A stretch of DNA of 41,959 nt. Origin: Croceicoccus sp. (lineage in GTDB: Bacteria; Pseudomonadota; Alphaproteobacteria; Sphingomonadales; Sphingomonadaceae). The stretch spans positions 17,963 to 59,921 of the forward strand of contig NZMY01000054.1 of assembly GCA_002694745.1 (NCBI GenBank). The letters are read 5' to 3'. Shown here piece by piece: positions 5,348 through 39,283 of this stretch. Both the position numbers and the translations under genes were made by a program. The notes beneath the pieces were generated by a model. It was not told where the DNA came from. It made no database searches and was given only the letters and a program-made list of their open reading frames with translations. How positions within the stretch are numbered: position 1 is the first letter of the stretch; each line of letters opens with the position of its first letter.

Positions 5348-5348
<1 letters not shown>
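4674..5348 (+). CDS. ligK: 4-carboxy-4-hydroxy-2-oxoadipate aldolase LigK (RraA-like fold)
   Basis: This 224-residue HMG/CHA aldolase splits 4-carboxy-4-hydroxy-2-oxoadipate into pyruvate and oxaloacetate, the last step of the 4,5-cleavage route; the family also acts on 4-hydroxy-4-methyl-2-oxoglutarate. The RraA/HMG aldolase fold is visible from [11 protein letters not shown] near residue 28 through [12 protein letters not shown] (96-107) to [10 protein letters not shown] (113-122). The adjacent Arg117-Asp118 match the Arg-Asp pair that binds pyruvate and the divalent metal. An acidic, helical C-terminus follows. GAGGAG upstream supports the ATG. It is the first gene of a rightward operon, and its stop overlaps the ligU start. 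Confidence 0.92.
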
Positions 5349-7292
<1,944 letters not shown>

Positions 7293-8115: not shown

Positions 8116-8202
8116 TTTTCAATCCTCACGAATCCTGCGTCGCCAGTCATCGTCGCGGAAACCGTTTGACAACGAATTCAACCTGCCCGGTCAGACAATT
8201 GG

Positions 8203-18560: not shown

Positions 18561-18644
18561 TATCCCTCTCCTGTTCATTCGGGGCTGGCCGTCTTCGGAA
18601 CCATATCCCTGTCTCAATTGCTTATTTTTCAGGATTTCTTGCGC

Positions 18645-19946: not shown

Positions 19947-19984
19947 CTCTATCTCCCGAACCGCGGCCATTTCGCCGCCTCTTG

Positions 19985-20047
19985 CGTATTCAATATACGT
20001 AATCTGCAGAGATGATTTGGGTCAAGCGCCAAAATGGTCGAACCATT
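19985..20047 (-). promoter_or_regulatory. Promoter region of the CYP108-TonB unit with a GntR-type operator
   Basis: AATGGT-CGA-ACCATT at 20033-20047 is a perfect palindrome with 6-bp arms. It contains TGGTCGAACCA, which fits the known FadR-subfamily pattern TNGTNNNACNA. On the minus strand it sits just upstream of a -35-like TTGACC (20025-20020). A second dyad, CGTAT-N5-ATACG (19985-19999), lies near the start of the transcript. The -10 box is unclear. The operator role is inference from the shared site at four other promoters. Confidence 0.65.
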
Positions 20048-20149
20048 GGCGGAAACTCGCATGACTCGATGCGATCGGGCTAATCCGGCGGAAATCGGAG
20101 GATGTTGATTCGCATAATCGAATGTCCGCAGACAAATCGAATGGCGCGA

Positions 20150-20893
20150 CTATTGTTCGCGATGCGCGCGATGATCCAGCGTTCGGCTATCTGACGTTTC
20201 GCGCGCGTGCCTGATCGCATCGACATGCCGGAAAAAGGCGCGGCGGCGCATCAGGCCAAAAAAGTTGAGCATGAGCGGCAAGGCCGCTTCGACCAGGCGG
20301 GCTGCCTCCTCCACGTCCCTGCGGCCCTCGACATGTTCGAGAAAGGTCTTGGCCTCCCACGCGCCGACGAAATCCGAAGCCTCGATATAGAAGCCCAATA
20401 TGTCCGGCGAATAATCGAGCGTGTCATTGAAACCGGCGTTGCGCATATCGCCCCAGATGCTGACCAGTTCCGCCGAGGTCAGGCTCAAGGCTTCACCCTG
20501 ATCGGTCTCGATAATCTCGATAATCCCGATTTCGCTCAGTGTCTTCGCGTCCTGTCGGGCCTTGGGATAACGCTTGACCAGAGAATCGAGGGGCACAGGG
20601 GCCTGATCGGATGCTTCGCTGTGAGCCACCAGGGTTTCCAGGTCGTCGAAGGCGCTCTCATCAACCCGCTTGCTGGTTCCGCTGCCGGCAACAAGCTCCT
20701 TGATCTGGGACAGCGTCAACCGGTTCTCCCGCTGAAGCCGCCGCACCGCGCGGATCGCTTCAACATGCTGATCGCCGTATTCGGCGACGGTCCTGCCGCT
20801 GCGTTCCGGTTGAGGAACAAGACCCTCGCGCAGGAAAACGCGGATCGTTTCCCTGTTCACGCCGGTTGCTTCTTCCAGTTCCTTCATTTTCAT
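20150..20893 (-). CDS. MerR-family transcriptional regulator
   Basis: This 247-residue protein has an N-terminal MerR winged HTH: MKMKELEEATGVNRETIRVF, then LREGLVPQPERSGRTVAEYG and a dimerisation helix through about residue 75. The C-terminal 170 residues are helical and were not recognised as a known effector domain. They contain YIEASDFVGAWEAKTFLEHV and LMLNFFGLMRRRAFFRHVDA, with no metal-binding cysteine cluster. It lies about 200 bp upstream of the CYP108 gene on the same strand and is divergent from the GntR gene. It might regulate the P450 promoter, where two dyads other than the GntR site occur (19985-19999 and 20108-20123). The effector is unknown. Confidence 0.85.
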   Translation of the reverse strand: MKMKELEEATGVNRETIRVFLREGLVPQPERSGRTVAEYGDQHVEAIRAVRRLQRENRLTLSQIKELVAGSGTSKRVDESAFDDLETLVAHSEASDQAPVPLDSLVKRYPKARQDAKTLSEIGIIEIIETDQGEALSLTSAELVSIWGDMRNAGFNDTLDYSPDILGFYIEASDFVGAWEAKTFLEHVEGRRDVEEAARLVEAALPLMLNFFGLMRRRAFFRHVDAIRHARETSDSRTLDHRAHREQ

Positions 20894-21012
20894 TGGCCAA
20901 GGCTACAGCACGCGATGCGGGACTGCGCAAGATGCCCGTGCACCCGCAGGCCGCCACCTTTGCGCCAGATCAAGGTCGATCGATCCGATCCGGGCCGGAA
21001 AGCCCGTTGGCA

Positions 21013-21027
21013 AGAGGTCAGACCATT
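21013..21027. promoter_or_regulatory. Imperfect GntR-type operator upstream of the GntR gene
   Basis: AGAGGT-CAG-ACCATT has the intact ACCATT half and a degenerate left half with the GGT core conserved. It sits about 70 bp ahead of the GntR start, in the intergenic region shared with the MerR gene. Autoregulation is a reasonable inference. Confidence 0.5.
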
Positions 21028-21096
21028 GGGCCAGCACTTGTCAGCACGCGAAACGGGCAATACCGATAGCTGGAAAACAAGAGCAACTGGCAAAAC

Positions 21097-21831
21097 ATGA
21101 TCATGGCAAAACCGGCAGGAAGCGAAATCAAGAGGGGCTTCAAACCCATCAAGACGCAGCGCGCATTCGAAGCGGTATGCGATCAGGTGCGCCAGATGGT
21201 CGCTGATGGCACGCTAAAGGCAGGTGACAAGCTTCCGGCCGAACGCGAACTGGCCGTCCGCTTCCAGATCAGCCGCAACGCGGTGCGCGAGGCGCTGCGA
21301 AGCCTTGAAATGTCGGGTATCATCCGCAACGAAAAGGGCGTGAAGGGCGGCGCCTTCATTCAGGCGGCGGAAAATGAACATGTCGCGCAGGCGATGCAGG
21401 ACTTCGTCCATCTCGGCAAAGTCTCGCTCGACGAATTGACCGAAGCGCGTCTCAGCATTCAAGCCACTGTCGTTCGCCTTGCGTGCGAACGCGGGACCGA
21501 CGCCCATTTCGATCGCTTGGCCGCCATCGTGGAGCAGACCCGCATCGAGACCGATGTCGAGGCACGCTATCACTGCGCGGTTGAGTTCTATCAGGTGCTG
21601 GCCGAAGCGACGGGGAACCGCATCTATGCGTTGTTCGTCGGGGCCTTGTCATCGATCCTGCAGGCTTTCGTGGCCGGGCCGAATTACAAGACGTTGCAGG
21701 AAACCTTGATCGATTCGCGCCACCGCCTTGTCACGGCCCTGCGAGAGAGGGATTGCGGTGCAGCCGTCGCGGAAATGACCGCGCACCTCGACCGGATACA
21801 CCAACACATGCAGGAAAACGCGGCGCGCTAG
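21097..21831 (+). CDS. GntR-family transcriptional regulator, FadR subfamily (FCD domain)
   Basis: This 244-residue regulator has an N-terminal winged HTH at about residues 20-90: the LKAGDKLPAERELAVRFQIS motif, then RNAVREALRSLEMSGIIR. An all-helical FCD effector domain follows (ARLSIQATVVRLAC, the YHCAVEFYQVLAEATGN segment and HRLVTALRERD). The FadR subfamily usually binds TNGTNNNACNA palindromes as a dimer and is released by a carboxylate or acyl-CoA ligand. Matching sites occur at five promoter positions in this window, including its own. Either ATG (21097 or 21103) could be the start. It is followed by the CoA-transferase gene, whose -10 overlaps one of the sites. Confidence 0.93.
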   Translation: MIMAKPAGSEIKRGFKPIKTQRAFEAVCDQVRQMVADGTLKAGDKLPAERELAVRFQISRNAVREALRSLEMSGIIRNEKGVKGGAFIQAAENEHVAQAMQDFVHLGKVSLDELTEARLSIQATVVRLACERGTDAHFDRLAAIVEQTRIETDVEARYHCAVEFYQVLAEATGNRIYALFVGALSSILQAFVAGPNYKTLQETLIDSRHRLVTALRERDCGAAVAEMTAHLDRIHQHMQENAAR

Positions 21832-21870
21832 CGTCTGGCATTTTGCGCGCTGATGACCATCGGCACCCAC

Positions 21871-21908
21871 TTGCATTTTACCGCCCGATTTTTATAGGTA
21901 GGACCATT
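21871..21908 (+). promoter_or_regulatory. CoA-transferase promoter overlapped by a GntR-type operator
   Basis: TTGCAT (21871-21876) and TATAGG (21893-21898) with a 16-bp spacer make a sigma-70-like promoter. The site ATAGGT-AGG-ACCATT (21894-21908) overlaps the -10 and start point, a classical repressor position. The 9-bp core GGTAGGACC is identical, in reverse complement, to the core of the acyl-CoA dehydrogenase operator at 39269-39283. Confidence 0.6.
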
Positions 21909-21933
21909 GTACCTTTAAGAGACGGAGAGCGGT

Positions 21934-23115
21934 GTGGACGATCGGATGGCAGGCGCCCTTGATGGGATCAGGGTGCTGGATTTCACGGCAGTGATGGCAG
22001 GTCCGTTCGCCACGCGCATGCTGGCCGATCTTGGCGCCGAGGTCATCAAGGTGGAGACGATGAAAGGCGGCGATCAGGTCCGCGCCCGTCCGCCGCTGCG
22101 CGATGGCAAGAGCCGCTATTTCGCACAGCTCAACGCCGGCAAGCGCAGTCTTGCCTGCGACCTGAAGAACCCTGCCATGCAGGAGACCATCCGCGAGCTG
22201 GCCAGCCAGTGTGACATCGTGGTCGAAAATTTCCGCCCCGGCGTGATGGCCCGTTTCGGCCTTGATTATGAAACGCTGGCCAAAACCAATCCGCGCCTGA
22301 TCTACTGCTCGATCTCAGGCTATGGCCAACAAGGGCCCAAGGCCCATTCCCCCGCCTATGCGCCGGTCATCCATGCCAGCAGCGGATTCGACATGACCAA
22401 TCTTGAATATCAGGACAATGCGGATAAGCCGGCAACCAGCGGCATCTTCATCGCTGACGTTCTTGGTGGCACCCACGCTTTTGGCGCGATCCAGACCGCG
22501 CTCTTCCAACGCGAACGGACCGGCGCGGGCCAGTTCATCGATGTGTCCATGCTGGAAGCGATGGTCGGCATGCTGGTGTATGAAACGCAGACCGCGCAGC
22601 AGCCTCTCGATCAGCGCCGCCCGCTTTACAAACCTTTGCGCACCGCCGACGGATTCATCATGGTCGCCCCCACCAGCCCCGGCAATTTCCTGAGCCTGGT
22701 AAAAGCAATGGAGCGTGAAGATCTGGCCGACGATCCGCGCTTTGCCACCAATGCCGATCGCAATCGCAACTGGGATGCGCTGCTGACCGAAGCCGAGAGC
22801 TGGACCATGAAGCACAGTTCGGAACAGGCCGAAGCACAGCTATCGGCAAAAGGCGTGCCCTGCGCTGTCTATCGCAACGTCACCGAGGTGATGGAGGACG
22901 AGCAACTGGCAGCACGCCAAGCCTTTACCACGCTGGACGACGGTGCCGGCCAGTTCAAAGTGACCAACCCTCCTTTCAAAATGTCCAATTCGGCCGCCCA
23001 TGCCCGCGATCACATGCCCGCGCTGGGCGAGGATGGCGGCGCCATCCTTCACGACATATTAGATTTACGGGACGACGAGATCGAGACCTATCGCTCTCAA
23101 GGCATGATGCTATAA
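21934..23115 (+). CDS. Type III (CaiB/BaiF-family) CoA-transferase
   Basis: This 393-residue protein has the family's N-terminal signature GALDGIRVLDFTAVMAGPFA, then MLADLGAEVIKVE, the ENFRPGVMARFGLDYE motif and the ISGYGQQGP loop. Asp175 in IFIADVLGGTHA falls where the catalytic aspartate of formyl-CoA transferase-type enzymes lies. These enzymes move CoA between carboxylic acids through an aspartyl-CoA intermediate. Here the enzyme would activate the acid produced by the adjacent aldehyde dehydrogenase route. The GTG at 21934 has GGAGAG upstream; an ATG at 21946 is an alternative giving MAGALDG. It is probably the target gene of the upstream GntR regulator. Donor and acceptor acids are unknown. 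Confidence 0.92.
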   Translation: MDDRMAGALDGIRVLDFTAVMAGPFATRMLADLGAEVIKVETMKGGDQVRARPPLRDGKSRYFAQLNAGKRSLACDLKNPAMQETIRELASQCDIVVENFRPGVMARFGLDYETLAKTNPRLIYCSISGYGQQGPKAHSPAYAPVIHASSGFDMTNLEYQDNADKPATSGIFIADVLGGTHAFGAIQTALFQRERTGAGQFIDVSMLEAMVGMLVYETQTAQQPLDQRRPLYKPLRTADGFIMVAPTSPGNFLSLVKAMEREDLADDPRFATNADRNRNWDALLTEAESWTMKHSSEQAEAQLSAKGVPCAVYRNVTEVMEDEQLAARQAFTTLDDGAGQFKVTNPPFKMSNSAAHARDHMPALGEDGGAILHDILDLRDDEIETYRSQGMML

Positions 23116-23173
23116 GTTCTATCGAGAGGCACATCGGAACAATCAGGTGCCGGACCGAGAGCGGGTTGAGGAA

Positions 23174-24391
23174 ATGACCGAAGTTTTCGAGATCAACATC
23201 CGGCACCTGCGCGGGCTGGTGGCCATCCGCGAACACGGCAGTATCACCGCGGCAGGTTCGCTGGTGAACCTTTCCCAACCCGCCCTGACACAAGGCATTG
23301 CCAAGCTTGAACGCCAGTTCGGCTATACGCTGTTCGAACGGCGTTCTGGCGGCATGATCCCCACCGCCATGGGTCGCATCGTGATCGAACGGACAGAGGC
23401 CGCGCTGAAACATCTGGCCGACAGCGCCCAAGGCCTGACCAATGTGTTCAACAATCCCGAACGGCTCATGACGATGACGCAGCTGCGCGCCTTTCTGGCG
23501 CTTGCGGATGCCGGCAGCTTTGCCGAAGCAGCGCGCAGCATTGCCATATCGCAAACGGCTGTCCATCGCGCGGTGGGCGATCTGGAGCTGGTCATCGGCA
23601 CCGATCTGGTCGAACGACGCGGACGGGCAGTGTGGCTGAATGCAGCAGGCAAAAAGCTTGCGCGCGGGTCGCGGCTTGCCGTTGCCGAAATTCAGGCGGC
23701 GCTGGTCGATCTCGCGCTCGACAGCGACAGCCGCAGCGAAATGATCTCCTTCGGCGCGCTGCCGCTCGCTCGCCCCTATATCGTGCCGCGCGCCATGGCC
23801 GATATCGCCAAGGAAGTGCCAAAGGCGTCGTTCAAGGTACTGGAAGGCAGCTGGAGCGAGCTTGTGGAGCCGCTGCGCGATGGCGCCATCGACATGATCG
23901 TGGGTGCACTTCGCCCCCACGAGATCGCCGATCTATATCAGCGTCCGCTTATCGAGGACCTTCTGGTCGTCGCCGCCGGCAGCCAGCACCCGCTTGCATC
24001 GGTGGAAAGGCCGACCATGGACCAGCTGCGGTCCTATCCATGGATCGTGGCGCCCGCCGACGCCCCGCTCAGGGCACATTGGGAACGGTTCTTTGCCGAA
24101 GGGCCAAGGCCCGAAACGCAGATCGAATGCGGATCGGTGATGATCATTGGCCGCCTGCTGACCTACTCGAACCTGCTGACGCTATTGTCGCCCGATCAGG
24201 TCGCGCTGCAGATCCGCAGCGGGCTTTTGACGCAGATTGGCAAGCCGCTGGAAGGCAGCCGCCGCATGGTGGGGATCACCACGCGGCGCAGCTGGCGACC
24301 CACAGCGACCCAGCGCCTGTTCTTCGAAAAGCTGGAAGAGGCCGCGCGCGAACGCACATCCAACCCCGATCTCACGGGCACGTGGATCTGA
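23174..24391 (+). CDS. LysR-type regulator with two tandem HTH domains (second copy)
   Basis: This 405-residue regulator has the same architecture as the protein encoded at 3421-4569. HTH_1 lies at residues 9-66 (ITAAGSLVNLSQPALTQGIA, FERR) and again at 100-160 (TQLRAFLALADAGSFAEAAR, VERRGRAVWLNAAG). An effector domain follows with ISFGALPLARP, LEGSWSELVEPLRDG and MIVGALRP. Similarity to the first copy runs through the whole chain. The ATG at 23174 directly follows GTTGAGGAA; a GTG at 23147 in frame is possible. It is convergent with the aldehyde dehydrogenase gene (18-bp gap) and 58 bp after the CoA-transferase gene. Its regulon is unknown. Confidence 0.88.
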   Translation: MTEVFEINIRHLRGLVAIREHGSITAAGSLVNLSQPALTQGIAKLERQFGYTLFERRSGGMIPTAMGRIVIERTEAALKHLADSAQGLTNVFNNPERLMTMTQLRAFLALADAGSFAEAARSIAISQTAVHRAVGDLELVIGTDLVERRGRAVWLNAAGKKLARGSRLAVAEIQAALVDLALDSDSRSEMISFGALPLARPYIVPRAMADIAKEVPKASFKVLEGSWSELVEPLRDGAIDMIVGALRPHEIADLYQRPLIEDLLVVAAGSQHPLASVERPTMDQLRSYPWIVAPADAPLRAHWERFFAEGPRPETQIECGSVMIIGRLLTYSNLLTLLSPDQVALQIRSGLLTQIGKPLEGSRRMVGITTRRSWRPTATQRLFFEKLEEAARERTSNPDLTGTWI

Positions 24392-24409
24392 CCCACGCGC
24401 CCTGTCGGA

Positions 24410-25891
24410 TCAGTCGAGGTTGATCCAGACCGCCTTCGTTTCCAGATATTCCTCGATGTGATGCGGGCCGGACTCGCGCCCGAATCCGCTCAACTTATAT
24501 CCGCCGAAAGGAACGCCAGGGTCGAGCATCTGGTAGCAGTTAACCCAGACCGAACCGGCCTTGATGCCGCGCGCCATCTTATGCGCGGTGGCAAGATTGC
24601 TGGTCCACACGCCGCTGCCAAGGCCGAAGCTTGTCGCATTGGCACGGGTCAGCACCTCATCGACCGTGTCGAAGGAAAAAGCCGATAGGACCGGCCCGAA
24701 GATCTCTTCGCGCGCAATCGTCATACCGTCGGTGACATTGCCAAAAATGGTGGGTTCGATGAAATAGCCCGCGTCATATCCTTCGCCCGCCTTGCGCGCA
24801 CCGCCCAACAGCGGGCTGGCGCCCTCACCCTCGGCCCCGTCGATGAAAGAAAGGATGCGCTCCATCTGCGCCTGAGACACGACCGGACCGATCTGTGTTT
24901 CGGGGTCAAGCGGATCGCCAACGCGAATGGTGCGGCTGTGTTCGACAAGACGCTCCATGAATTCATCGTGGATCGAGGACTGGACGAACAGGCGCGTTCC
25001 CGCGCTGCAGATCTGGCCGGCATTGGCAAAGACCGCATTGGCCGCGGCCGGCACCGCCTTGTCGAGATTGGCATCGGCAAAGACGATATTGGGCGATTTG
25101 CCACCCAGTTCGACGGTGACTCGCTTCATCGTCGGGGCCGCAGCCTCGATAATTTTCTGACCCACGCCGGTCGAACCGGTGAACGCGATCTTGTCGACAT
25201 CGGGATGGGCGGAAAGCGCCGCGCCCGCATCGCCAAGGCCGGTGACGACATTGATGACGCCATCGGGTACGCCCGCCTCAAGGCACAGCTCGGCAAAGCG
25301 CAGCGCCGACAACGGCGTCTGTTCGGCAGGTTTCATCACCAGCGTGCAACCTGTGGCGAGGACAGGGCCGGACTTCCATACCGACATGCCGATGGGTCCG
25401 TTCCACGGGTTGATCGCGGCGACCACGCCGATCGGCTCTTTCAGCGTATGGCTCAGCACATCGCCGGGTACCGAATTGGACAGCGTCTCGCCCGAAATCA
25501 GCGTGGCCTGCCCGGCATAATAGCGCAGCAATGCGCCCGCCCTGACCTTGCCCAGCCGCGTACGCGATAGCGGCGCGCCAAGGTCCAGCGTGTCGAGCAT
25601 GGCAAGCTCGTCCCAGTTCTCTTCGACCAGATCGGCAAGGCGCAGCATGATCGCCTGCCGCTCGGCGGGCTTCATCCGGCTCCACGGGCCGCTCAACGCC
25701 TCTCGCGCGGCTTTCACGGCGCGGTCGACATCTTCGGCGCCGCCCTGCGCGACATTGGCCAGCAGTTCGCCCGTGGCAGGATTGCGTGTTTCGAAACGCT
25801 GGCCGGAAACGGCGGGCACGCGCTTGCCGCTGATCAGCATGTCCTGATCGCGCTTCGCAATGACCGAGGTGATGGGCGTGTTTGCGTTCAT
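24410..25891 (-). CDS. NAD(P)-dependent aldehyde dehydrogenase (ALDH superfamily)
   Basis: This 493-residue protein has the standard ALDH landmarks: AINPWNGPIGMSVWK, then FTGSTGVGQKI for the cofactor, the VTVELGGKSPN motif with the general-base Glu, and FANAGQICSAGTR with the catalytic Cys. The ending PFGGYKLSGFGRESGPHHIE is also typical. It turns an aldehyde into a carboxylic acid. It overlaps the GMC dehydrogenase stop by four bases (ATGA), with GGAGC as ribosome site. It should therefore act on the aldehyde made by that enzyme. It is the last gene of the leftward Rieske-reductase-MFS-GMC-ALDH unit. The particular substrate cannot be read from sequence. Confidence 0.95.
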   Translation of the reverse strand: MNANTPITSVIAKRDQDMLISGKRVPAVSGQRFETRNPATGELLANVAQGGAEDVDRAVKAAREALSGPWSRMKPAERQAIMLRLADLVEENWDELAMLDTLDLGAPLSRTRLGKVRAGALLRYYAGQATLISGETLSNSVPGDVLSHTLKEPIGVVAAINPWNGPIGMSVWKSGPVLATGCTLVMKPAEQTPLSALRFAELCLEAGVPDGVINVVTGLGDAGAALSAHPDVDKIAFTGSTGVGQKIIEAAAPTMKRVTVELGGKSPNIVFADANLDKAVPAAANAVFANAGQICSAGTRLFVQSSIHDEFMERLVEHSRTIRVGDPLDPETQIGPVVSQAQMERILSFIDGAEGEGASPLLGGARKAGEGYDAGYFIEPTIFGNVTDGMTIAREEIFGPVLSAFSFDTVDEVLTRANATSFGLGSGVWTSNLATAHKMARGIKAGSVWVNCYQMLDPGVPFGGYKLSGFGRESGPHHIEEYLETKAVWINLD

Positions 25892-27555
25892 AACTGAAGC
25901 TCCGTTTCTGCAACCCGGACCGTTTCGGCCGCTTGCGAATTATGCGATTTGCGCTCTTCCAGAATGAAATCGGCGGCGCGCTGGGCGATCATCATCGTGG
26001 GCGCGCTGGTATTGCCGCTGATGATAGAGGGCATGACCGAGGCATCGATCACGCGCAGCCCGTCGATCCCGTGCACCCTCAACCGGTCGTCGACCACGGC
26101 TAGCGGATCGCTGGCAGGCCCCATCTTGCAGGTGCCGGTGGGGTGATAGGCAGTATTGACGATCTTGCGCAGCGCCTTGTCGAGCGCTTCGTCGCTGACA
26201 TGCTCGGCCCCAGGCTCGATCTCCTTGCCGCGCATGGCGGCCAGCGCAGGTTGCGCAAAAATGCGCCGCGCCTCGCGGAAACCGGCGATAAGCGTTGCCA
26301 TGTCGCGCGGATCGTCAAAGAAATTGGGCTCGATGATCGGCTTGTCCTCGGCCCTGTTGCTCGCCAGCCGCACGCGCCCCTCGCTATTGGGGCGAAGTAG
26401 CTGGATCAGCGCCATGAAGCCATGGTCGCTGGGCACCACGCGGGCATTGCCCTTCAACCCGACCAGGAAGGTCATCTGGATATCGGGCCTGCCGCTGCCG
26501 TCGGTGCAGACGAAGCCGCCGCACTCCGCCACGTTCGAAGCGAACATGCCTTCGCGTTTCAAAGCATATTTGAACGGCGCGAAGGCATTGCGGGCCAGCG
26601 CCGAACGCGAGTTTGCATAGGATTCCCCCGTCGGATTTTCAACCGAGATATGCACGGTGGGATGATCTTGCAGATGCGCGCCGACGCCCGGAAGATGGTG
26701 TGCCGGCTCGACGCCCACCTTGACCAGATCATCCCTGTCGCCAATGCCCGAGAGCATCAACAGATGCGGCGAATTTGTCGCGCCCGCGCTGACTAGCACT
26801 TCGCTTTTGGCGGTCATGATCTCGCGCTTGCCTTCGCGCTCGATCTCGATCCCGGTGGCGCGGCCATCATTGATGATGATGCGCCGTACCAGCGTTTCAT
26901 CGAAAACGCTGAGGTTCGGTCGTCCAAGTGCCGGGTGGAGGAAAGCGCGGGCCGCCGAAAGGCGCGTCCCGCGCCGCTGGTTCAGATCATAGCGCCCAAA
27001 GCCATCCTTGCGCTCGGCCGCGAAATCCTCGTTGTGGTAATGCCCCGCCTCTACTGCGGCGTCGATGATCGCGGTGGTGATCGGGTTGAAAGATGCCGGT
27101 TTCTCGACATCCAGTTCCGCACCCTTGCCGTGCCAAGGCTTGTCAGGGCCGTGGTAGTTTTCAAGCCGCTTGAAGACGGGAAGCACATCGTCCCAGCCCC
27201 AGCCGGGATTGCCCGCCTGCACCCAGCCGGCGTAATCTTCTTCCTGCCCGCGAATATAGACGCCGCCATTGATCGCACTGCACCCGCCGAAAAGCTTGCC
27301 GCGCGGAAAGCCGATGACGCGCCCGTCGATCGCATCGCCGCCGGTTAACTGCTGCTGCCAGTTGTAACGGGCATGCGGGATCAGGAAGATATTGCCGACC
27401 GGCATGATCGTCTTGATATTGACCGGCCATCTGCGATCGGACGGTCCCGCCTCGATCAGGGCAACCGATATGGCGGGATCGGCAGACAGGCGGTTGGCCA
27501 ACACGCTGCCACCGGGACCCGAACCGATGACGATATAATCGAAACTGTGCGTCAC
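25888..27555 (-). CDS. GMC-family FAD-dependent alcohol dehydrogenase (choline dehydrogenase-like)
   Basis: This 555-residue flavoprotein has an N-terminal ADP-binding loop IVIGSGPGGSVLANRLS. It also has GMC signature sequences GKLFGGCSAINGGVYIRG and GATNSPHLLMLSGIGD, and the C-terminal AYHPTGTCKMGP with the catalytic His region. These enzymes oxidise primary alcohols to aldehydes and pass electrons to a quinone or other acceptor. The start is GTG, overlapping the MFS stop (GTGA), with GGAGAG upstream. Coupling to the ALDH gene suggests a two-step alcohol to aldehyde to acid conversion, for instance of a hydroxymethyl group made by an oxygenase. Confidence 0.93.
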   Translation of the reverse strand: MTHSFDYIVIGSGPGGSVLANRLSADPAISVALIEAGPSDRRWPVNIKTIMPVGNIFLIPHARYNWQQQLTGGDAIDGRVIGFPRGKLFGGCSAINGGVYIRGQEEDYAGWVQAGNPGWGWDDVLPVFKRLENYHGPDKPWHGKGAELDVEKPASFNPITTAIIDAAVEAGHYHNEDFAAERKDGFGRYDLNQRRGTRLSAARAFLHPALGRPNLSVFDETLVRRIIINDGRATGIEIEREGKREIMTAKSEVLVSAGATNSPHLLMLSGIGDRDDLVKVGVEPAHHLPGVGAHLQDHPTVHISVENPTGESYANSRSALARNAFAPFKYALKREGMFASNVAECGGFVCTDGSGRPDIQMTFLVGLKGNARVVPSDHGFMALIQLLRPNSEGRVRLASNRAEDKPIIEPNFFDDPRDMATLIAGFREARRIFAQPALAAMRGKEIEPGAEHVSDEALDKALRKIVNTAYHPTGTCKMGPASDPLAVVDDRLRVHGIDGLRVIDASVMPSIISGNTSAPTMMIAQRAADFILEERKSHNSQAAETVRVAETELQL

Positions 27556-28901: not shown

Positions 28902-28969
28902 AATCCTCTCTCCTGCGTTGGAACCGGCCGGCCGCTTTGCGGCTCTATCAAACCGGGATCGATGCTCTG

Positions 28970-29989: not shown

Positions 29990-30066
29990 CGTTCTCTCCC
30001 GAAACGACGGATCTTCATCGGCCCCGAAATTTGCTGACCGGAAACTGGAGCCGAAGCCGTGGGGCC

Positions 30067-31380: not shown

Positions 31381-31625
31381 TTGATCCTCACAGTTTCTGG
31401 TTCTGTCATTGTGCTGGGCCGACCCCCGGTCGCCCCCCGCTTGCACCCGGATGTCCGGACGGCATTTCGATTCCGAGCTAAATGTTCTGCCGCCACAGCC
31501 CCAATCGGAATATGGTTGTACCATTCGAAAATAGGGACGATGCTATTGCTATTATTTCTCTTCATCGCTCTTTCTTCGCTCCAGAACACAATCGTTCAAT
31601 CGGCTTCAGGGAGAGAAGACCAGAA
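31381..31625. promoter_or_regulatory. Divergent promoter region, Rieske operon / TonB receptor, with GntR-type operator
   Basis: The 245 bp between the two divergent starts contain TATGGT-TGT-ACCATT at 31511-31525. It has perfect 5-bp arms, ATGGT and ACCAT at 31512-31524, and one mismatch at the outermost pair. It matches the palindrome at the CYP108 and acyl-CoA dehydrogenase promoters. One site here could control both directions. Clear -35/-10 boxes were not assigned. Confidence 0.6.
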
Positions 31626-33911
31626 ATGAAGAACTATATTCAGACACTTACGTCATGCCTTGCCATCGCGGCCTGCTTTGCCACGCCCGCATTCGCACAG
31701 GACGCACCAACCACGGCATCATCGGATTCGGTAGGTGATGAGGACTCCGATCAGATGACTGAGGGGCCTGTCCGCCGGGACGACACGCAGGAAATCATCG
31801 TGACCGCTCAACGCCGCGAATCGACTGTGCGCGACGTTCCCTTCTCGATCGCTGCGTTCGGCGGCGCGGACCTTGCCGAACAGCAGGTCTTCAGCCCGAC
31901 CGCGCTCACCACCGAGCTTCCCGGCATCACCGTCAACACGTCTGACAAGTCGCTTTCGATCCTTTCGATCCGCGGCAATGTGTCGACCTTTCGCACCGCG
32001 ACACTCGACACGCCCGTCGCCTATTTCCAGGATGACATCTATTACGTGTTCAACAACGACCTGAACGCGAACTTCTATGACGTTAACCGTGTCGAGGTGC
32101 TGCGCGGGCCGCAGGGCACGCTGTTCGGCCGCAACGTCGTGGGTGGCGCCATCGCGGTCGTGACGAACAACCCCGAATTTGGCGACGAGTATTCGTTGCA
32201 GGTCACCGGCGGCAATGGCGGCTATTTCCGCACCGAAGGCGTCGTCAACGGCACCGTCGTGGAAGACAAGCTGGCCGCCCGCTTCGCATTCTCGACCGAG
32301 CGCTCCGACGGTTTGATCAAGACCCCCAACCAGCCCGGCAATTACGGCGAGACCGATGGCTATGCCATGCGCGGCAAACTGCTGTTCACCCCGACAGACA
32401 CGCTCGAGATCGTTCTGGCTGGGGATTATTCCTATACCAAGGGCAATGCCGGTTCGATCCAGCTGGGCATTGGCGGCGATCAGGTTGTGCCCGATACCTT
32501 CGGCGATTTCACCAATGACGAGTGGACGAACAACGACTACGCCCCCTCACCATACAGGCAGCGCCTGCGGGGCGGTTACCTGCGCGGTGATCTTGACCTG
32601 ATGGGCGGTACGCTGACCGCGATCACCGGCTATCGCATGAATGACAGCCACGCGATCAACGACGACATTCCCGTCGGAACGGTCGTGCCCGTTTTCGACC
32701 GTCGGCAGGACGTAAAGAATCGCAGCTTCACGCAGGAACTGCGTTATGCGTCCGCACCCAATCGCCTGTCCTATGTGGCGGGCGTCTATTACCTCAACGC
32801 CGATGTCTCGACGACGAACATCTTCTATTACAGCCCGCTGCCAGAAAGCGTGTTCGACGGACGCATCCGCACCAACCCGGATGTCTCGAACATCACCCGC
32901 GTTCAGGACGGCAAGGTCAAGTCCTACGCAATCTTCGGAGAACTGACCTTCGAAGTAACCGACCGAATCTCGGTCGTTGCCGGTGGCCGTTACACGAAAG
33001 ACAAGAAGTCGATCGACTACCGCGCCTTTTCGACCACCGATCCTGATGGCATCCCCGGCCTTGGCTTTCCGGGCGACGTCGAAGCCTCGGGCGGTGAAAG
33101 CTGGGACGCGTTCACTCCGCGCTTCACCGTCAAGTACGAGCCGATGGATGGCGTGAACCTGTATGCGACCTATGCCAAGGGCTTCAAATCGGGCGGCTTT
33201 GTCGACAACGCCTATCTGAACCCGACCATCCCGCTCGATCCAGAAAAGGCCCGCAACTACGAAATCGGCGCAAAGACCCGGCTGTTCGGCAACATGCTCG
33301 ACCTTAATGTCGCGCTGTTCGACCAGACAACGAAGGACTTGCAGAACTTCTCGGGCGCAGGCGGCGTGGCGCACACGTTTAACGGCACGCTGAAGATGCA
33401 GGGCATGGAACTTGAATCGAAGCTGCGTCCGGTGCCGGGTCTTCAGTTCACTTTCAATTACACCTACCTCGATGGCGAATATACCTCGCTGTACGACCCG
33501 CTGGTCGATGTCGATTATTCGGGCAATCCCGCGAAATATGCGCCTAAGCACTCGTTCCTGGCGCGCGCCAAATATGATGCCTATCTGCCCAATGGCGCGA
33601 TCCTCACGCCGCAGGTGGAATTCAACTATTCCTCGCGCATCTCGACCGACGACGCGAACAACCTCTCGACCTGGCAGAACCTCTATAATGACACGCGCGG
33701 GCGCACGCTCAATGCGCGTCTCAACTACGAGAGTGCCGACGGTCACTGGAATCTGGGCCTGTGGGGCAAGAATCTCACCAACAATTACCAGATCATGCAT
33801 GCCGACGACATTACGGCCTTCCTCGTCGTGCCGACGGGGCAGACCCGGTACTGGAAAATCTTCACTAACACCCCGCGCACCTATGGCCTGACGCTGGGCT
33901 ACAAGTACTAA
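31626..33911 (+). CDS. TonB-dependent outer-membrane receptor (second)
   Basis: This protein of about 761 residues starts MKNYIQTLTSCLAIAACFAT, a signal peptide ending near AFAQD. A TonB-box region QEIIVTAQRRESTVRDVPFS follows, then the plug motif VEVLRGPQGTLFGRNVVGGAI. The barrel contains YATYAKGFKSGGFVDNAY and ends in RTYGLTLGYKY with an aromatic final residue. The ATG at 31626 follows AGGGAGAG; the frame is open from 31482, but the signal peptide fixes the start. It is transcribed divergently from the Rieske operon and followed at 21 bp by an SDR gene. It is likely a substrate importer of the same pathway. It is clearly different in sequence from the receptor at 16182-18560. Confidence 0.93.
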   Translation: MKNYIQTLTSCLAIAACFATPAFAQDAPTTASSDSVGDEDSDQMTEGPVRRDDTQEIIVTAQRRESTVRDVPFSIAAFGGADLAEQQVFSPTALTTELPGITVNTSDKSLSILSIRGNVSTFRTATLDTPVAYFQDDIYYVFNNDLNANFYDVNRVEVLRGPQGTLFGRNVVGGAIAVVTNNPEFGDEYSLQVTGGNGGYFRTEGVVNGTVVEDKLAARFAFSTERSDGLIKTPNQPGNYGETDGYAMRGKLLFTPTDTLEIVLAGDYSYTKGNAGSIQLGIGGDQVVPDTFGDFTNDEWTNNDYAPSPYRQRLRGGYLRGDLDLMGGTLTAITGYRMNDSHAINDDIPVGTVVPVFDRRQDVKNRSFTQELRYASAPNRLSYVAGVYYLNADVSTTNIFYYSPLPESVFDGRIRTNPDVSNITRVQDGKVKSYAIFGELTFEVTDRISVVAGGRYTKDKKSIDYRAFSTTDPDGIPGLGFPGDVEASGGESWDAFTPRFTVKYEPMDGVNLYATYAKGFKSGGFVDNAYLNPTIPLDPEKARNYEIGAKTRLFGNMLDLNVALFDQTTKDLQNFSGAGGVAHTFNGTLKMQGMELESKLRPVPGLQFTFNYTYLDGEYTSLYDPLVDVDYSGNPAKYAPKHSFLARAKYDAYLPNGAILTPQVEFNYSSRISTDDANNLSTWQNLYNDTRGRTLNARLNYESADGHWNLGLWGKNLTNNYQIMHADDITAFLVVPTGQTRYWKIFTNTPRTYGLTLGYKY

Positions 33912-33932
33912 GTCAAGGAACTGGAGCGCGAC

Positions 33933-34709
33933 ATGACCCTTACCGAAATCCCCCGGCCCGGCTCCTTCTCTTTCGAAGGGCGGACTGCAATGGTTACCGG
34001 CGGCGCCAAGGGCGTTGGCGAGGCCATCTGCCGCGAAATACACGCAGGGGGAGGAAATGTTGCGATCTGCGATATCGACCTGGCGGCGGCTTCGGCCGTC
34101 GCCGGGTCCCTCGACCCTTCGGGCGAGAGCGTTATGGTGGTCTCGCTCGACGTACGCAGCAAGGATGATTTCATCGCCGGACGCGATGCCGTCATCGCCA
34201 AATGGAGCAAGGTCGATATTCTGGTGAACAATGCCGGCTTTGCAAAGCGCACACCGGTTGACGACATCACGCCAGAGGAATTCGACGAGATCGTCGCCAT
34301 CAACATGCGCAGCGTTTTTCTGGGCTGCCAGGTCTTCAAGGATCACATGGCGGAAAACGGCTATGGCCGGATCGTCAATATCACCTCATTGGCAGGGCAA
34401 AACGGCGGCACGGTTGCTTCGCCGCATTATGCCTCATCCAAGGCCGGCGCGATCATGCTGACGAAATATTTCGCGCAATTGCTGGCCGACAAGGGGATCA
34501 CGGTGAATGCGATTTCCCCCGGCCCCATCGCCACGGCGAAGGCTCGTTTGTCGGACGAACAGATCGCCATAGTGGAAGGCAAGGTCCCGATCGGTCGCTT
34601 CATGGAGGTCAGCGAGATTGCCGCAGCGACGGCCCTGCTGGCATCAGACCGCGGCGGCTTTTTCGTCGGGGCAACGCTGGACATGAACGGCGGACTTTAC
34701 GTCCGCTGA
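33933..34709 (+). CDS. Short-chain dehydrogenase/reductase
   Basis: This classical SDR of 258 residues has the cofactor loop TGGAKGVGEA (TGxxxGxG), the NNAG motif (VDILVNNAGFA), the active-site ITSLAGQNGG serine region and YASSKAG as YxxxK. The C-terminus LLASDRGGFFVGATLDMNGG is standard. The aspartate after the second strand (ICDIDL) suggests NAD(H) rather than NADP(H). AAGGAACTGGAGCG precedes the ATG. It follows the TonB receptor at 21 bp on the same strand, so it is probably co-transcribed, and it would oxidise or reduce a hydroxyl/keto intermediate of the local pathway. It is convergent with the ETF-ubiquinone oxidoreductase gene. Substrate unknown. Confidence 0.92.
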   Translation: MTLTEIPRPGSFSFEGRTAMVTGGAKGVGEAICREIHAGGGNVAICDIDLAAASAVAGSLDPSGESVMVVSLDVRSKDDFIAGRDAVIAKWSKVDILVNNAGFAKRTPVDDITPEEFDEIVAINMRSVFLGCQVFKDHMAENGYGRIVNITSLAGQNGGTVASPHYASSKAGAIMLTKYFAQLLADKGITVNAISPGPIATAKARLSDEQIAIVEGKVPIGRFMEVSEIAAATALLASDRGGFFVGATLDMNGGLYVR

Positions 34710-34733
34710 CTACGTCCAACGAGTGCCGCCCGC

Positions 34734-36380
34734 TCACATATTGGGATAATTGGGCCCGCCGCCGCCTTCGGGCGTGACCCAGTTGATGTTCTGCGTCGGA
34801 TCCTTGATGTCGCAGGTCTTGCAGTGGACGCAGTTCTGCGCGTTGATCACGAACTTGGGATCGCCCTCTTCCACCCCGACATATTCATAGACGCCCGCCG
34901 GGCAGTAACGCGCCGCAGGCCCGGCATAGACCGGCAGGTTGATCCTCAGTGGAACATCGGGGTCCTTGAGCTGAAGATGGCAGGGCTGGTCTTCCTCGTG
35001 ATTGGTGTTCGACAGGAACACGCTGGAAAGCCGGTCAAAGCTGATCACGCCATCGGGCTTGGGATACTGAATCGGCTTGAACAGATCGGCGCGCATCGTC
35101 TGGTCACAGTCGCGGTGGTGTTTCATCGTGATGGGCAGGCCGATTTTCAGCGTGCGCATCCACATGTCCGCGCCCGCGATCACCGTGCCCAGCGCGCCGC
35201 CGAACTTGGCGACTGCGGGCTCGGCGTTCTTCACCTTCTTCAATTCGTCCGCGATCCAGCTGGAGCGCAGGTTCGTTTCGTAATCGACGACCTCGTCAGC
35301 CGAACGTTCGGCGGCGATCGCCTCGGCCACGGCTTCTGCCGCCAGCATGCCCGACTTCATCGCGGTATGGCTGCCCTTGATGCGCGGCACGTTGACGAAG
35401 CCCGCGCTGCACCCGATCAGCGCGCCGCCGGGGAAGGTGAGTTTCGGCACCGACTGCCATCCGCCTTCATTGATGACGCGCGCGCCGTAAGACACGCGCT
35501 TGCCGCCTTCGAGGATCGCGCGGATTTCAGGGTGCTGTTTCCAGCGCTGGAATTCCTCGAACGGGAAGAGGTACGGGTTCTTGTAATCGAGTGCGACGAC
35601 GAAGCCCAAGGCCACCTGCCCGTTCGCCTGGTGGTAGAGGAAGCCCCCGCCCCACGCGTCGTTTTCGCTAAGCGGCCAGCCCTGTGTGTGCAGCACACGG
35701 CCCGGCGCATGCTTCTTGGGATCGATGTCCCACAATTCCTTCATGCCAAGGCCATAGACCTGCGGTTCGCAGTCGGCCTCAAGGTCGAACTTCGCCTTCA
35801 GCTGCTTGGTCAGCGACCCGCGCGCGCCTTCGGCGAACAGCGTGTATTTGCCGTGCAGTTCCATGCCGGGCTGGTAGTCCTGCTTATGGCTGCCATCGGC
35901 GGCAACGCCCATGTCGCCGGTCGCAACGCCCTTGACCGAACCGTCATCGTTGTAAAGCACCTCGGCCGCCGGGAAGCCGGGGAAGATTTCCACGCCCAGC
36001 CCTTCGGCCTTTTCGGCAAGCCAGCGGCACAGGCTGCCCAGCGAACCGGTGTAATTGCCATCGTTCGACATAAAGGGCGGCATCATGATGTGCGGCATGG
36101 CGAACTTGCCCTTGGCCGACAGGGTCCAGTGCCAGTTATCGGTCACTGGGGTCTCGGCCATCGGGCAATCGTCATCGCGCCAGTCGGGCAGCAGCTCGTC
36201 CAGCGCCTTAGGATCGACCACCGCGCCCGACAATATATGCGCGCCGATCTCGCTGCCCTTCTCCAGCACGCAGACCTCAAGATCCGCGTTCACCTGCTTC
36301 AGCCGGATCGCCGCGCCCAATCCCGCAACGCCGCCACCGACGATGACGACATCATAAGGCATGGATTCGCGTGTGGTCAT
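34734..36380 (-). CDS. Electron transfer flavoprotein-ubiquinone oxidoreductase
   Basis: This 548-residue inner-membrane-associated iron-sulfur flavoprotein starts with the FAD loop [17 protein letters not shown]. It has the ETF-QO hallmarks [20 protein letters not shown] and KHHRDCDQT. The C-terminal [4Fe-4S] motif lies around CPAGVYEYV and [20 protein letters not shown], and the chain ends GGGPNYPNM. It passes electrons from reduced ETF to ubiquinone. The start overlaps the etfA stop by four bases (ATGA). It is the final gene of a unit acyl-CoA dehydrogenase-etfB-etfA-ETF-QO, giving a complete electron path from an acyl-CoA oxidation to the respiratory chain. Confidence 0.96.
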
Positions 36381-37312
36381 AGGCCTTCAGTCAACTCCGG
36401 CACGGCCTTGTACAGATCCGCGACGAGGCCGATGTCAGCGACCTGGAAGATGGGTGCGTCTTCGTCCTTGTTGATGGCGATGATGGTCTTGCTATCCTTC
36501 ATCCCCGCAAGGTGCTGGATCGCGCCCGAGATGCCGATGGCGATATAGACTTCCGGTGCCACGATCTTGCCGGTCTGGCCGACCTGGTAGTCGTTGGGGA
36601 TATAGCCCGCGTCCACGGCAGCACGCGATGCGCCCACGCCCGCGCCGAGCTTGTCGGCGAGCGGCATGATGACGCTTTCGAAGGTTTCGCTGTCCTTCAG
36701 CGCGCGGCCGCCCGACACGATGATCTTGGCGCTGGTCAGTTCCGGGCGTTCGCTCTTGGCGATCTCGGCGCCGATGAAGCTGGATTTGCCCGCATCGCCG
36801 GTGGAGGCGACCGCCTCGATGGCAGCCGATCCGCCCTCGGCCTCGGCCTTGTCGAAGGCAGTGCCGCGTACGGTGATGACCAGCTTCGCATCGGTCGATT
36901 CAACGGTCGCAATCGCGTTGCCCGCATAGATCGGGCGGGTGAAGCTCTTGTCGCCCTCGACCGAGAGGATGTCGCTGATCTGCATGACATCGAGCAGCGC
37001 CGCCACGCGCGGCGCGATGTTCTTGCCGGTGGTCGTGGCCGGGAACAGCACCGCGTCATGATGATCCATCAGCGAGGTGACAAGCGGCGCGACATTCTCG
37101 GCCAGCTGGTGTTCAAAGGCTGCGTCATCCGCGACATGGACCTTGCCCACGCCCGCGATCTTGGCAGCCGCTTCACCCACTGCGCCGCAGCCAGCGCCCG
37201 CGACCAGCAGGTGCACTTCGCCCAGCTTTGCCGCAGCGGTGACTGTGGCGAGCGTCGCATCGCCCAGATTGGCGTTGTCGTGATCGACATAAACAAGCGT
37301 TTTCATGATCAT
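36377..37312 (-). CDS. etfA: Electron transfer flavoprotein alpha subunit
   Basis: This 311-residue EtfA begins [20 protein letters not shown]. It has the C-terminal FAD-binding signature [14 protein letters not shown], then [37 protein letters not shown] and [20 protein letters not shown]. With EtfB it forms the soluble heterodimer that accepts electrons from acyl-CoA dehydrogenases. The start overlaps the etfB stop (ATGA); a second ATG six bases later (MKTLV) may be the real start. It sits between etfB and the ETF-ubiquinone oxidoreductase gene in one operon. It appears full length and intact. Confidence 0.96.
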
Positions 37313-38055
37313 GCGACTCCCATTGCTTTAAGCTTGGCGACCAATTCATCGACATCGGCCACCTTCACGCCCGCCTGCCGGACCGGCGGTTCGGCGACGG
37401 TCAGCGTCTTCAGACGCGGCGCGATATCGACGCCGTAGTCAGCCGGGGTCTTGGTCTCCAAAGGCTTCTTCTTCGCCTTCATGATGTTGGGCAGCGAAGC
37501 ATAGCGCGGCTCGTTCAGGCGCAGATCGGTCGTCACGATCGCAGGCAGCGACAGCTTCACCGTCTCCAGCCCGCCATCGACTTCGCGGGTCACGCTGACG
37601 CTGTCACCCTCGACCTCGACCTTCGACGCAAACGTGCCCTGCGGCAGGTCCATCAGCGCGGCCAGCATCTGGCCGGTCTGGTTGCTGTCGTCGTCGATCG
37701 CCTGCTTGCCAAGGATGATGATTCCCGGCTCGATCTCGGCGGCCACGGCCTTCAGGATCTTGGCCACCGCCAGCGGCTCGACCTCCTGATCGGTCTCGAC
37801 CAGCACCGCGCTGTCCGCACCCATCGCCAGCGCCGTGCGCAGCGTTTCCTGCGCCTTGGCAGGACCGATGCTGACCGCGATGATCTCTTCGACCTTGCCC
37901 GCTTCCTTCAGACGGATCGCTTCTTCCACCGCGATCTCGTCGAACGGGTTCATGCTCATCTTCACGTTCGCAAGATCCACGCCCGAGCCGTCCGCTTTCA
38001 CACGCGGCTTCACGTTATAGTCAATAACCCGCTTCACGGGCACCAGGGCCTTCAT
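37309..38055 (-). CDS. etfB: Electron transfer flavoprotein beta subunit
   Basis: This 248-residue EtfB opens [20 protein letters not shown]. It has the family signature region around the [20 protein letters not shown] segment, the AMP-binding [16 protein letters not shown] and the recognition-loop sequence [20 protein letters not shown]. It pairs with EtfA. It lies 29 bp downstream of the acyl-CoA dehydrogenase gene and overlaps etfA by four bases. A diverged, truncated copy of its first 33 or so codons exists at 7300-7458 next to the lig genes. This copy is the complete and presumably active one. Confidence 0.96.
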
Positions 38056-38084
38056 AAGCCTATCCTATTCAATGCAGAGGTGAA

Positions 38085-39221
38085 TCAGCGCAGCAGTTCT
38101 TTTGCGATGGTGTTCTTCTGGATTTCTGAAGAACCCTCATAAATCCGCGTGATGCGGATATCGCGATAGAGCCGTTCGATCGCATAGCCCTTGCAATAGC
38201 CCGCGCCGCCATAAATCTGCAGCGCGGTATCGACCGTACGGCCGCCCGCCTCGGTCGCGAACAGCTTCGCCATCGAAGCCAGTTCGCGGCGCTTTTCGCC
38301 CTGATCATAGCGCCATGCGGCATCGAGCAGGATCAGGCGCGCGGCACGCATGTCGGTCGCCATACCGGCCAGATAATGGCGAATTGCCTGAAAATCGGCG
38401 ATGACATTGCCGAACGCCGGGCGAACTTTCGCTTCTTCAGTCGCAAGTTCGAGCGCATATTCGCCCATTCCCACTGCCGTCGCGCCAACATTCATGCGGC
38501 CTTCGTTCAAACATTCAAGCGCATAGCTGAAGCCCTTGCCCTCTTCGCCGATCAGAGCGTCGGCAGGCACCTGACATTCATCGAATGTCAGTTCGTACAC
38601 GGCCGGCGAAGTACCCATCAGCTCGATCACGCCCGACACCGAAAAGCCCGGCGTATCCGCCGGCATCAAGAAGGCCGAGATGCCCCCGCGAGCACCTGCG
38701 CTCTTGTCCGTGTAGGCATAGACCGTGACAAATTTCGCGTTCTTGCCGTTCGAGATATAGGTCTTCGATCCATTGATCACCCAGCCATCGGCATTGCGCG
38801 TCGCGGTGGTGCGCATTGAACCGGGATCAGACCCCGAACCCGGCTCCGTGAGAGCGAAGGCTACCGGAATTTCGCCAGTTGCCATTCCCGGGATCAGCAT
38901 CTCCTTCTGCGCTTCAGTGCAGTGATAGGCGATGTTCTTCGCGCCCGGACCCATCAGTGGGCGAATTTCGGTCCAGAATTGGGGGGGAAGGCGCGCAAGC
39001 TCGATCTGCACCGCAGCCTGCGCCAGAGCGCCAAGCCCAAGGCCGCCATATTCCTCGGGCAAGGCCATGCCGAAATATCCGTTATCGACTAGGGTCTGGC
39101 GAACGATCGGCGGGACCACGCCAGTCTCAACGAATTCGCGCTCCAGCGGCAGCAGGTCGTTGACGATGGCCTTTGTCGCCTCACAGAAATCCTTGATCTC
39201 GTCGGGAAGTTCGAAGTCCAT
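38085..39221 (-). CDS. Acyl-CoA dehydrogenase
   Basis: This 378-residue FAD enzyme has the standard acyl-CoA dehydrogenase layout: the GMALPEEYGGLG segment, then the flavin/substrate strand FALTEPGSGSDPGSMRTTA and YISNGKNAKFVTV. The C-terminal helical domain has LQIYGGAGYCKGYAIERLYR and RIYEGSSEIQKNTIAKELL; the Glu of YEGSSE is the usual catalytic base position in part of the family. The ATG at 39221 with AAAGG upstream is preferred. The ATG at 39257 lies almost against the operator at 39269. It is the first gene of the unit with etfB, etfA and ETF-QO, under a perfect GntR-type palindrome. It probably oxidises a CoA ester made by the CoA-transferase. Confidence 0.95.
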   Translation of the reverse strand: MDFELPDEIKDFCEATKAIVNDLLPLEREFVETGVVPPIVRQTLVDNGYFGMALPEEYGGLGLGALAQAAVQIELARLPPQFWTEIRPLMGPGAKNIAYHCTEAQKEMLIPGMATGEIPVAFALTEPGSGSDPGSMRTTATRNADGWVINGSKTYISNGKNAKFVTVYAYTDKSAGARGGISAFLMPADTPGFSVSGVIELMGTSPAVYELTFDECQVPADALIGEEGKGFSYALECLNEGRMNVGATAVGMGEYALELATEEAKVRPAFGNVIADFQAIRHYLAGMATDMRAARLILLDAAWRYDQGEKRRELASMAKLFATEAGGRTVDTALQIYGGAGYCKGYAIERLYRDIRITRIYEGSSEIQKNTIAKELLR

Positions 39222-39268
39222 GATGTGCCTTTCAAATGTCTCGATCACTCTCAACACTGAAAAAGCAT

Positions 39269-39283
39269 AATGGTCCTACCATT
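39269..39283. promoter_or_regulatory. GntR-type operator upstream of acyl-CoA dehydrogenase-etf
   Basis: AATGGT-CCT-ACCATT is a perfect palindrome with 6-bp arms, 48 bp before the ATG at 39221. It shares the 9-bp core GGTCCTACC with the CoA-transferase site (read on the other strand) and the arms with the CYP108 site. It fits the FadR-subfamily TNGTNNNACNA pattern. Confidence 0.65.

Follow-up and report, generated by a model that had tools for sequence, protein, structure and literature searches.

Regulators of the FadR subfamily of GntR proteins typically bind palindromes in which GT and AC lie 3 nucleotides (nt) apart within TKGT/ACMA boxes (PMC4494728, excerpt), a form written TNGTNNNACNA in the available text of PMC2230225. 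PdhR, a pyruvate-sensing FCD-type GntR protein of Escherichia coli, has the box AATTGGTnnnACCAATT, whose 9-bp core GGTnnnACC is needed for tight binding (PMC7660256, excerpt), and the box of E. coli LldR, AAnTGGTCnGACCAnTT, has the same core and spacing (PMC10272880, excerpt). Here, we analyzed a 41,959-nucleotide stretch of Croceicoccus sp. (G000:C2:17963-59921 of a 4,023,093-base genome; the whole stretch is called the window), in which an earlier note had described five copies of an AATGGT-N3-ACCATT palindrome and assigned them to a GntR regulator encoded at 21097-21831 (gntR). The window sites have the same core, GGTNNNACC, as PdhR and LldR, and comparison with the operators printed in the excerpts of PMC4494728 and PMC2230225 agreed with the note that the motif is of the FadR-subfamily type. 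We put at roughly 0.85 the probability that these sites are operators through which the FCD-type GntR protein would switch a degradation cluster as a local regulon. No description of this cluster or operator was found, by title and start of abstract, among the matches listed in the open-licence PMC literature.

A motif scan of the window found all five sites at the coordinates and with the mismatches that had been claimed, and the scan and gene calls together placed each in a promoter gap, also as claimed. Operator 1 (AATGGTCGAACCATT, 20033-20047), a perfect palindrome with no mismatches, lies in the promoter of a P450terp-like cytochrome P450 and a TonB receptor (16182-19946, minus strand). 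Operator 2 (AGAGGTCAGACCATT, 21013-21027, 2 mismatches) does lie upstream of gntR (plus strand), in a gap shared divergently with a MerR-family regulator gene (20150-20893, minus strand), and probably serves autoregulation of gntR. Operator 3 (ATAGGTAGGACCATT, 21894-21908, 2 mismatches) occupies the promoter of a class III CoA-transferase gene followed by a LysR gene (21934-24391, plus strand); as the gap between them is short, the two are probably carried on one transcript. Operator 4 (TATGGTTGTACCATT, 31511-31525, 1 mismatch) is located in a divergent promoter between an operon for a Rieske oxygenase, a reductase, an MFS transporter, a GMC oxidoreductase, and an aldehyde dehydrogenase (24410-31380, minus strand) and genes for a TonB receptor and a short-chain dehydrogenase (31626-34709, plus strand). 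Operator 5 (AATGGTCCTACCATT, 39269-39283), again a perfect palindrome without mismatches, precedes genes for an acyl-CoA dehydrogenase, the electron transfer flavoprotein (ETF) subunits etfB and etfA, and an ETF-ubiquinone oxidoreductase (ETF-QO) (34734-39257, minus strand). The five sites of the proposed local regulon thus stand but their number does not, since the local set has at least six: operator 6 (C2:61913-61927, or 43951-43965 on the window scale, in locus L014) lies outside the window, 4.7 kb further on from the window sites and 255 bp before an aldehyde dehydrogenase gene.

Loose matching alone proves nothing. When up to 3 mismatches are allowed, the window yields 12 matches where 9.4 would be expected, a count near chance that 29 of 100 shuffles reach. 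This count, and the fact that most listed genome matches at 2 mismatches are coding, would suit the view that the palindromes are chance occurrences or leftovers of common ancestry with no regulatory role. Significance was therefore sought with the core pattern, across the genome, and in relatives. A tighter family pattern, WDWGGTNNNACCWHW, matched the window at exactly the five sites, where 0.02 matches were expected and none of 100 shuffles reached 5. As WDWGGTNNNACCWHW was derived from these five sites themselves, the independent tests are those in the genome and the relatives.

The only two perfect sites of the genome lie in the window, and 8 sites have up to 1 mismatch, 3 of them in the window and the five others all coding. 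At up to 2 mismatches, the number rises to 56, with 30 for a reversed control pattern. Gaps were called with a small home-made gene caller that had learned its codon usage from the window, and the gap and coding classes cover the 50 of these 56 sites that were listed. Contig C2 has 7 of the listed sites, all in gaps. Elsewhere, 37 out of 43 are coding and 6 lie in gaps, a coding share no better than that of the control (23 coding and 7 in gaps among 30), so the motif outside C2 behaves like the control. Genome-wide, WDWGGTNNNACCWHW has 8 matches (13 for its reversed control), namely the five window sites, operator 6, and two inside predicted coding genes elsewhere, one of which scores weakly. 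Six of the 8 fall within 24 kb, all six in gaps, and the operator set is therefore confined to one 24-kb stretch. The earlier note had counted equal frequency in coding DNA and unrelated promoters as evidence against its proposal, and the genome scan did not find this.

We then turned to relatives. In the genus, gntR occurs in 4 of 14 genomes and is therefore accessory. An orthologue of its product (E up to 1e-35) is encoded by 4 of 396 genomes of the order, our own included; the other three, G217, G228, and G267 (61 to 64% identical), represent two genus groups, one possibly Novosphingobium. A scan of genome contigs with the protein gave four loci, in a Croceicoccus metagenome-assembled genome (MAG; locus L016, identical product), C. 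mobilis, Pelagerythrobacter aerophilus, and Aurantiacibacter xanthus. Plasmid records added Croceicoccus marinus (pCME4A9I, 99% identical), Croceibacterium atlanticum (91%), and Novosphingobium sp. KACC 22771 (63%), and the sphingomonad orthologues were 60 to 97% identical. In these last three species the cluster is carried on plasmids (the first two both rep_cluster_545; L142, L143, and L144). Viral contigs were also scanned and contained no relative of the regulator.

In ten clusters from six or seven genera (the MAG being left out as a duplicate), WDWGGTNNNACCWHW matched 6, 6, 5, 5, 5, 4, 7, 4, 3, and 5 times. All 50 matches lie in gaps and none in coding DNA, with 0 to 0.2 expected per cluster by shuffling. 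All 4 carriers among the 396 genomes have two perfect sites each, and those of G217, G267, and G228 were located in their clusters; of the 392 noncarriers, 61 have at least one perfect site and 15 at least two (counted by hand from the table). With our own genome excluded, the 3 carriers are all found among the 18 of 395 genomes with at least two perfect sites, for which chance gives about 8 in 100,000 by hand calculation.

The individual operators are also directly seen to be conserved. The site before gntR is present in 10/10 clusters, with a perfect left half in four relatives, so the earlier expectation that orthologous gntR loci would carry the same site was confirmed. The CoA-transferase site and the acyl-CoA dehydrogenase site were likewise found in 10/10 clusters, the latter perfect in every one, and operator 4 has a counterpart in all 9 clusters whose Rieske/TonB gap was in hand. 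The P450 promoter has a core-matching site in the 7 clusters that possess the P450, in two of them only at 3 mismatches; the stretches of P. aerophilus that were read contain no P450 block, no P450 TonB receptor, and no P450-promoter site. Operator 6 is found in our own genome, C. marinus, and C. mobilis, and in G217 and Novosphingobium the aldehyde dehydrogenase gene stands close behind other genes with no site of its own. A further gap match at 2 mismatches (20140-20154), which overlaps the last few bases of the MerR gene, was discounted because its core is broken (GGC/ACT instead of GGT/ACC) and because it is not kept in C. mobilis, Croceibacterium atlanticum, or A. xanthus; it was seen only in L016 and C. 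marinus, whose copies are near-identical.

Each unit retains its site despite reshuffling of the genes. In four clusters (G217, G228, G267, and Novosphingobium sp. KACC 22771), etfB is divergent from gntR (cut by the contig end in G228) and the acyl-CoA dehydrogenase gene adjoins lysR. We also compared our genome with Croceibacterium atlanticum, A. xanthus, and P. aerophilus and found the palindrome arms identical at 165 of 168 positions (98%) and the spacer at 31 of 42. Flanks agreed at 176/350 and 196/350 positions without gaps (372/700; 50 to 56%); as an ungapped count favors the operator interpretation, we added one with gaps allowed (223/350 and 251/350, or 474/700; 64 to 72%). Arms this much better kept than their flanks, sites that follow their genes through rearrangement, and the 50/50 location of pattern matches in gaps make chance or a shared past without regulatory role scarcely credible. 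Because the palindrome is kept in relatives even where the genes have been shuffled, it is very probably a docking site for the GntR protein. Together, sites before each main unit and their persistence through rearrangement support grouping the transcription units on both strands into one local regulon, as the earlier note had held.

Two side observations were made in the reshuffled clusters. Their acyl-CoA dehydrogenase/lysR gap holds two palindromes exactly 20 bp apart, one of them weaker (L134 6731/6751, L132 1501/1521, L138 5738/5758, and L144 23269/23289), an arrangement that suggests cooperative binding. In G217, two more operators stand before TonB receptor genes of the cluster (L134 16362 and L136 8007).

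The product of gntR has an N-terminal GntR winged helix (PF00392, E 9.9e-17, residues 25 to 81) and a C-terminal FCD domain (PF07729, E 1.8e-17, model positions 1 to 124 of 125), so the regulator class had been read correctly at 21097-21831. "FadR-like" is right for the subfamily only, because the scores lie far below the NCBIfam cut-offs of the named families (PdhR, 92.6 bits against 330; LldR, 87.2 against 311; NanR, 116.4 against 260; FadR, 37.5 against 249.2). The sites have the expected form for that subfamily, a palindrome with GT and AC 3 nt apart (2 nt in some members) within TKGT/ACMA boxes. The core GGT-N3-ACC is present in 50/50 hand-collected sites, which were collected by that core and are not independent evidence for it; in 16 of them the left half reads AGGT, which differs from TKGT by one base. 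Four distant homologues with other neighbors were examined among 36 plasmid records with a match. Upstream of the gene we found ATTGGTCCGACCTAA in Pseudonocardia, a weak GGT-N3-ACC in Roseomonas, three TAAGGT-N3-ACCTT palindromes in Variovorax VAI-C (40% identical; L146, upstream of 7935), and no GGT-N3-ACC in Variovorax WDL1. Since distant homologues show AGGT half-sites, those in the window are within the range of the family. The VAI-C gene stands among tripartite tricarboxylate transporter genes.

Could another protein own the sites? The LysR (23174-24391) and MerR (20150-20893) genes both lie in the cluster, and the genome encodes four other FCD proteins. Because every one of the ten clusters has LysR, presence alone does not separate it from GntR. 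However, the window gap directly before lysR has no site, and sites precede the distant gntR homologues of Pseudonocardia and Variovorax VAI-C, around which the annotation shows neither LysR nor MerR within 8 kb. As for MerR, the best match in P. aerophilus, next to gntR, is a 94-codon open frame (59%, residues 11 to 105; G003:C3:16094-16369, or L063 ~8095-8370), yet four sites persist there, and the stretches read in G267 and G228 keep sites with no MerR match, so MerR is an unlikely binder of the GntR-type sites. Near the four other FCD genes, the gaps of the nearby stretches hold no 3-spaced GT/AC palindrome at up to 1 mismatch. Spacing and core are, in addition, those of FadR-subfamily GntR proteins, and we regard ownership by LysR, MerR, or another FCD protein as improbable. 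The gaps near the four FCD genes do contain four 2-spaced palindromes; a perfect one, GATGGT-GA-ACCATC (L118 501), lies about 3 kb from the C8 FCD gene and may be the site of another regulator or due to chance.

Several points weigh against the GntR protein as owner of these sites. That it binds them is something we infer from sequence. In the four rearranged clusters, the LysR gene is divergent from the acyl-CoA dehydrogenase gene with the operator in their common gap, and LysR accompanies 10/10 clusters. The ten clusters are not independent, because the three from Croceicoccus have nearly identical promoters, and all gap calls rest on the home-made gene caller. The P450 sites of G217 and Novosphingobium have 3 mismatches with the core intact, that of C. 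mobilis (AATGGTAGAACCGAT) is one outer base off the family pattern, and at the position of operator 6 in A. xanthus the core is degenerate. Regular expressions for promoter boxes failed in part (TonB 2/9, Rieske 1/9, P450 2/7) or throughout (gntR 10/10). Finally, by sequence alignment, the metal-binding histidines 148, 196, and 218 of Corynebacterium glutamicum LldR align with Tyr165, Arg208, and His230 here. As two of the three histidines of this metal-dependent FCD sensor are replaced, LldR is not a safe guide to the effector. Arg208 is invariant in 13/13 homologues, and a histidine is found at the first metal place in 1 of 13; an alignment with NanR has a gap at the place of Arg208 and pairs His209 instead, a residue not kept among the homologues. 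With low confidence, the ligand may be a carboxylate or a CoA thioester bound without metal. An AlphaFold model built with 7 sequences (mean predicted local distance difference test score, 64.2; predicted TM score, 0.53) was judged too weak to use.

The position of the operators relative to promoter boxes bears on the sign of control. The boxes were read by eye against the consensus, and what confirms them is only that the strings recur. In the CoA-transferase promoter, the left half of operator 3 lies on a -10-like TATAGG (21893-21898), with a -35-like TTGCAT at 21871-21876, and TTGnnn-N16-18-[TA]ATAGG overlaps the operator in 10/10 clusters. That this half is the -10-like box would explain why it looks degenerate yet is invariant, and the overlap suggests repression. 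Similarly, TTGACA-N16-TAATGG overlaps the etfB operator in 4/4 reshuffled clusters, and at the TonB receptor a -35-like box lies inside the operator, a pattern found in 7/9; these, too, are places where a repressor would sit. The geometry differs at the P450 promoter (7 clusters) and the Rieske promoter (9 clusters), where the operator ends 6 to 8 bp before a conserved TTG-type box; the end of operator 1 itself lies 7 bp ahead of a -35-like TTGACC (minus strand, 20025-20020). This upstream position would suit a GntR protein that acts mainly as an activator, recruiting polymerase from sites upstream of -35 while those on -10 boxes matter little, and the FCD protein CitO is an activator (PMC4746285, excerpt). 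Considering that the operator covers the -10-like box at the CoA-transferase in 10/10 clusters and at etfB in 4/4, which is a repressor position, we find a predominantly activating role doubtful. Either sign is possible at the P450 and Rieske promoters.

The model that we favor is as follows, its sign and effector being what we infer. A GntR dimer would bind A/T-rich half-sites with the core GGT-N3-ACC before each main transcription unit and its own gene, with the uptake receptors, the P450, the Rieske oxygenase operon, the CoA-transferase, the acyl-CoA dehydrogenase/ETF genes, and gntR as targets. The cluster would thereby be switched as one, about 16 window genes and at least one aldehyde dehydrogenase gene beside the window. 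Where the operator lies over -10-like or -35-like elements (CoA-transferase, TonB receptor, and etfB in the rearranged clusters), binding would most likely repress until the FCD domain takes up an intermediate of the pathway, which is probably an organic acid or the CoA thioester of one. The operators of the P450 and Rieske promoters lie just upstream of -35, and there the protein may repress less directly or activate.

A second inverted repeat, TTACGTAT-N5-ATACGCAA, is present in the P450 promoter (19982-20002), 30 bp from operator 1, and in the aldehyde dehydrogenase promoter (C2:61862-61882, or 43900-43920 on the window scale), 30 bp from operator 6. At 0 to 1 mismatch, it occurs in just these two promoters of the genome, both with a GntR-type operator; at 3 mismatches, genome counts are no higher than those of the reversed control. 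With up to 2 mismatches, it was found in the P450 promoter of all 7 clusters possessing the P450 and in the aldehyde dehydrogenase promoter of C. marinus, C. mobilis, and A. xanthus, at 29 to 31 bp from the operator by hand arithmetic. The stretches searched in clusters without the P450 gave a single 3-mismatch match, in G228. The MerR protein is the natural candidate to bind this repeat. On a tentative view, to which we give some weight but less than an even chance, the network has two inputs. The FCD protein would act with opposite signs by position, and the P450 and aldehyde dehydrogenase steps would need a second signal read by MerR at this repeat. In such a network, the FCD protein may repress from sites on -10 or -35 at the CoA-transferase, etf, and TonB promoters and activate from upstream of -35 at the P450 and Rieske promoters.

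The gene content gives a possible picture of what is being controlled. The P450 is closest in the PDB to P450terp (E 3.5e-159), which hydroxylates alpha-terpineol to 7-hydroxyterpineol (PMC7794910, excerpt), and this kinship suggests a monoterpenoid substrate such as terpineol. The set further comprises two TonB receptors, Rieske oxygenases, alcohol and aldehyde dehydrogenases, the class III CoA-transferase, and an acyl-CoA dehydrogenase accompanied by a dedicated ETF and ETF-QO, suggesting that a ring methyl group is oxidized to an acid, activated with CoA, and dehydrogenated. Genes for LigA, LigB, an amidohydrolase, an RraA-like protein, and PrpF at 210-7292 are probably a protocatechuate 4,5-cleavage set, and the nearby LigAB-type genes suggest a protocatechuate end of the pathway; no GntR-type sites at up to 2 mismatches were found at 210-7292. 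That the scattered units serve one pathway, as had been proposed, is plausible.

Altogether, the earlier note had recognized a real, conserved local regulon in raw sequence. What stands out is a clear operator set, its persistence through rearrangement, and its composite promoters; the mechanism itself is not new. An FCD regulator gains a defined putative operator and a target list, and operators are seen to stay with their genes while a degradation cluster, plasmid-borne in three species, is reshuffled across sphingomonads. One protein and five promoters now offer a way to test what the whole cluster does, and the regulator is a possible sensor for the cluster's substrate.

Set beside the known systems, the protein and its sites resemble several and coincide with none. 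With PdhR they share the core GGTnnnACC and a match in the GntR-type helix (5kvr), but the bases next to the core are ATT/AAT in PdhR, compared with outer bases AAT/ATT here, and PdhR governs central metabolism rather than a local degradation cluster. LldR of E. coli controls a lactate operon; its C. glutamicum counterpart (2di3) came first in a 13-row profile search of the PDB but carries the metal histidines 148 and 196 in place of Tyr165 and Arg208. A single-sequence search of the PDB ranked NanR of E. coli first (E 4e-18), but NanR binds GGTATA direct repeats (PMC8012715 and PMC4494728, excerpts) instead of a palindrome. PheR of Sphingobium sp. SHPJ-2 belongs to the IclR family and uses another operator, but, like the regulator proposed here, it is a local repressor in a sphingomonad, connected with an aromatic pathway and with TonB-dependent uptake (PMC13273656, excerpt).

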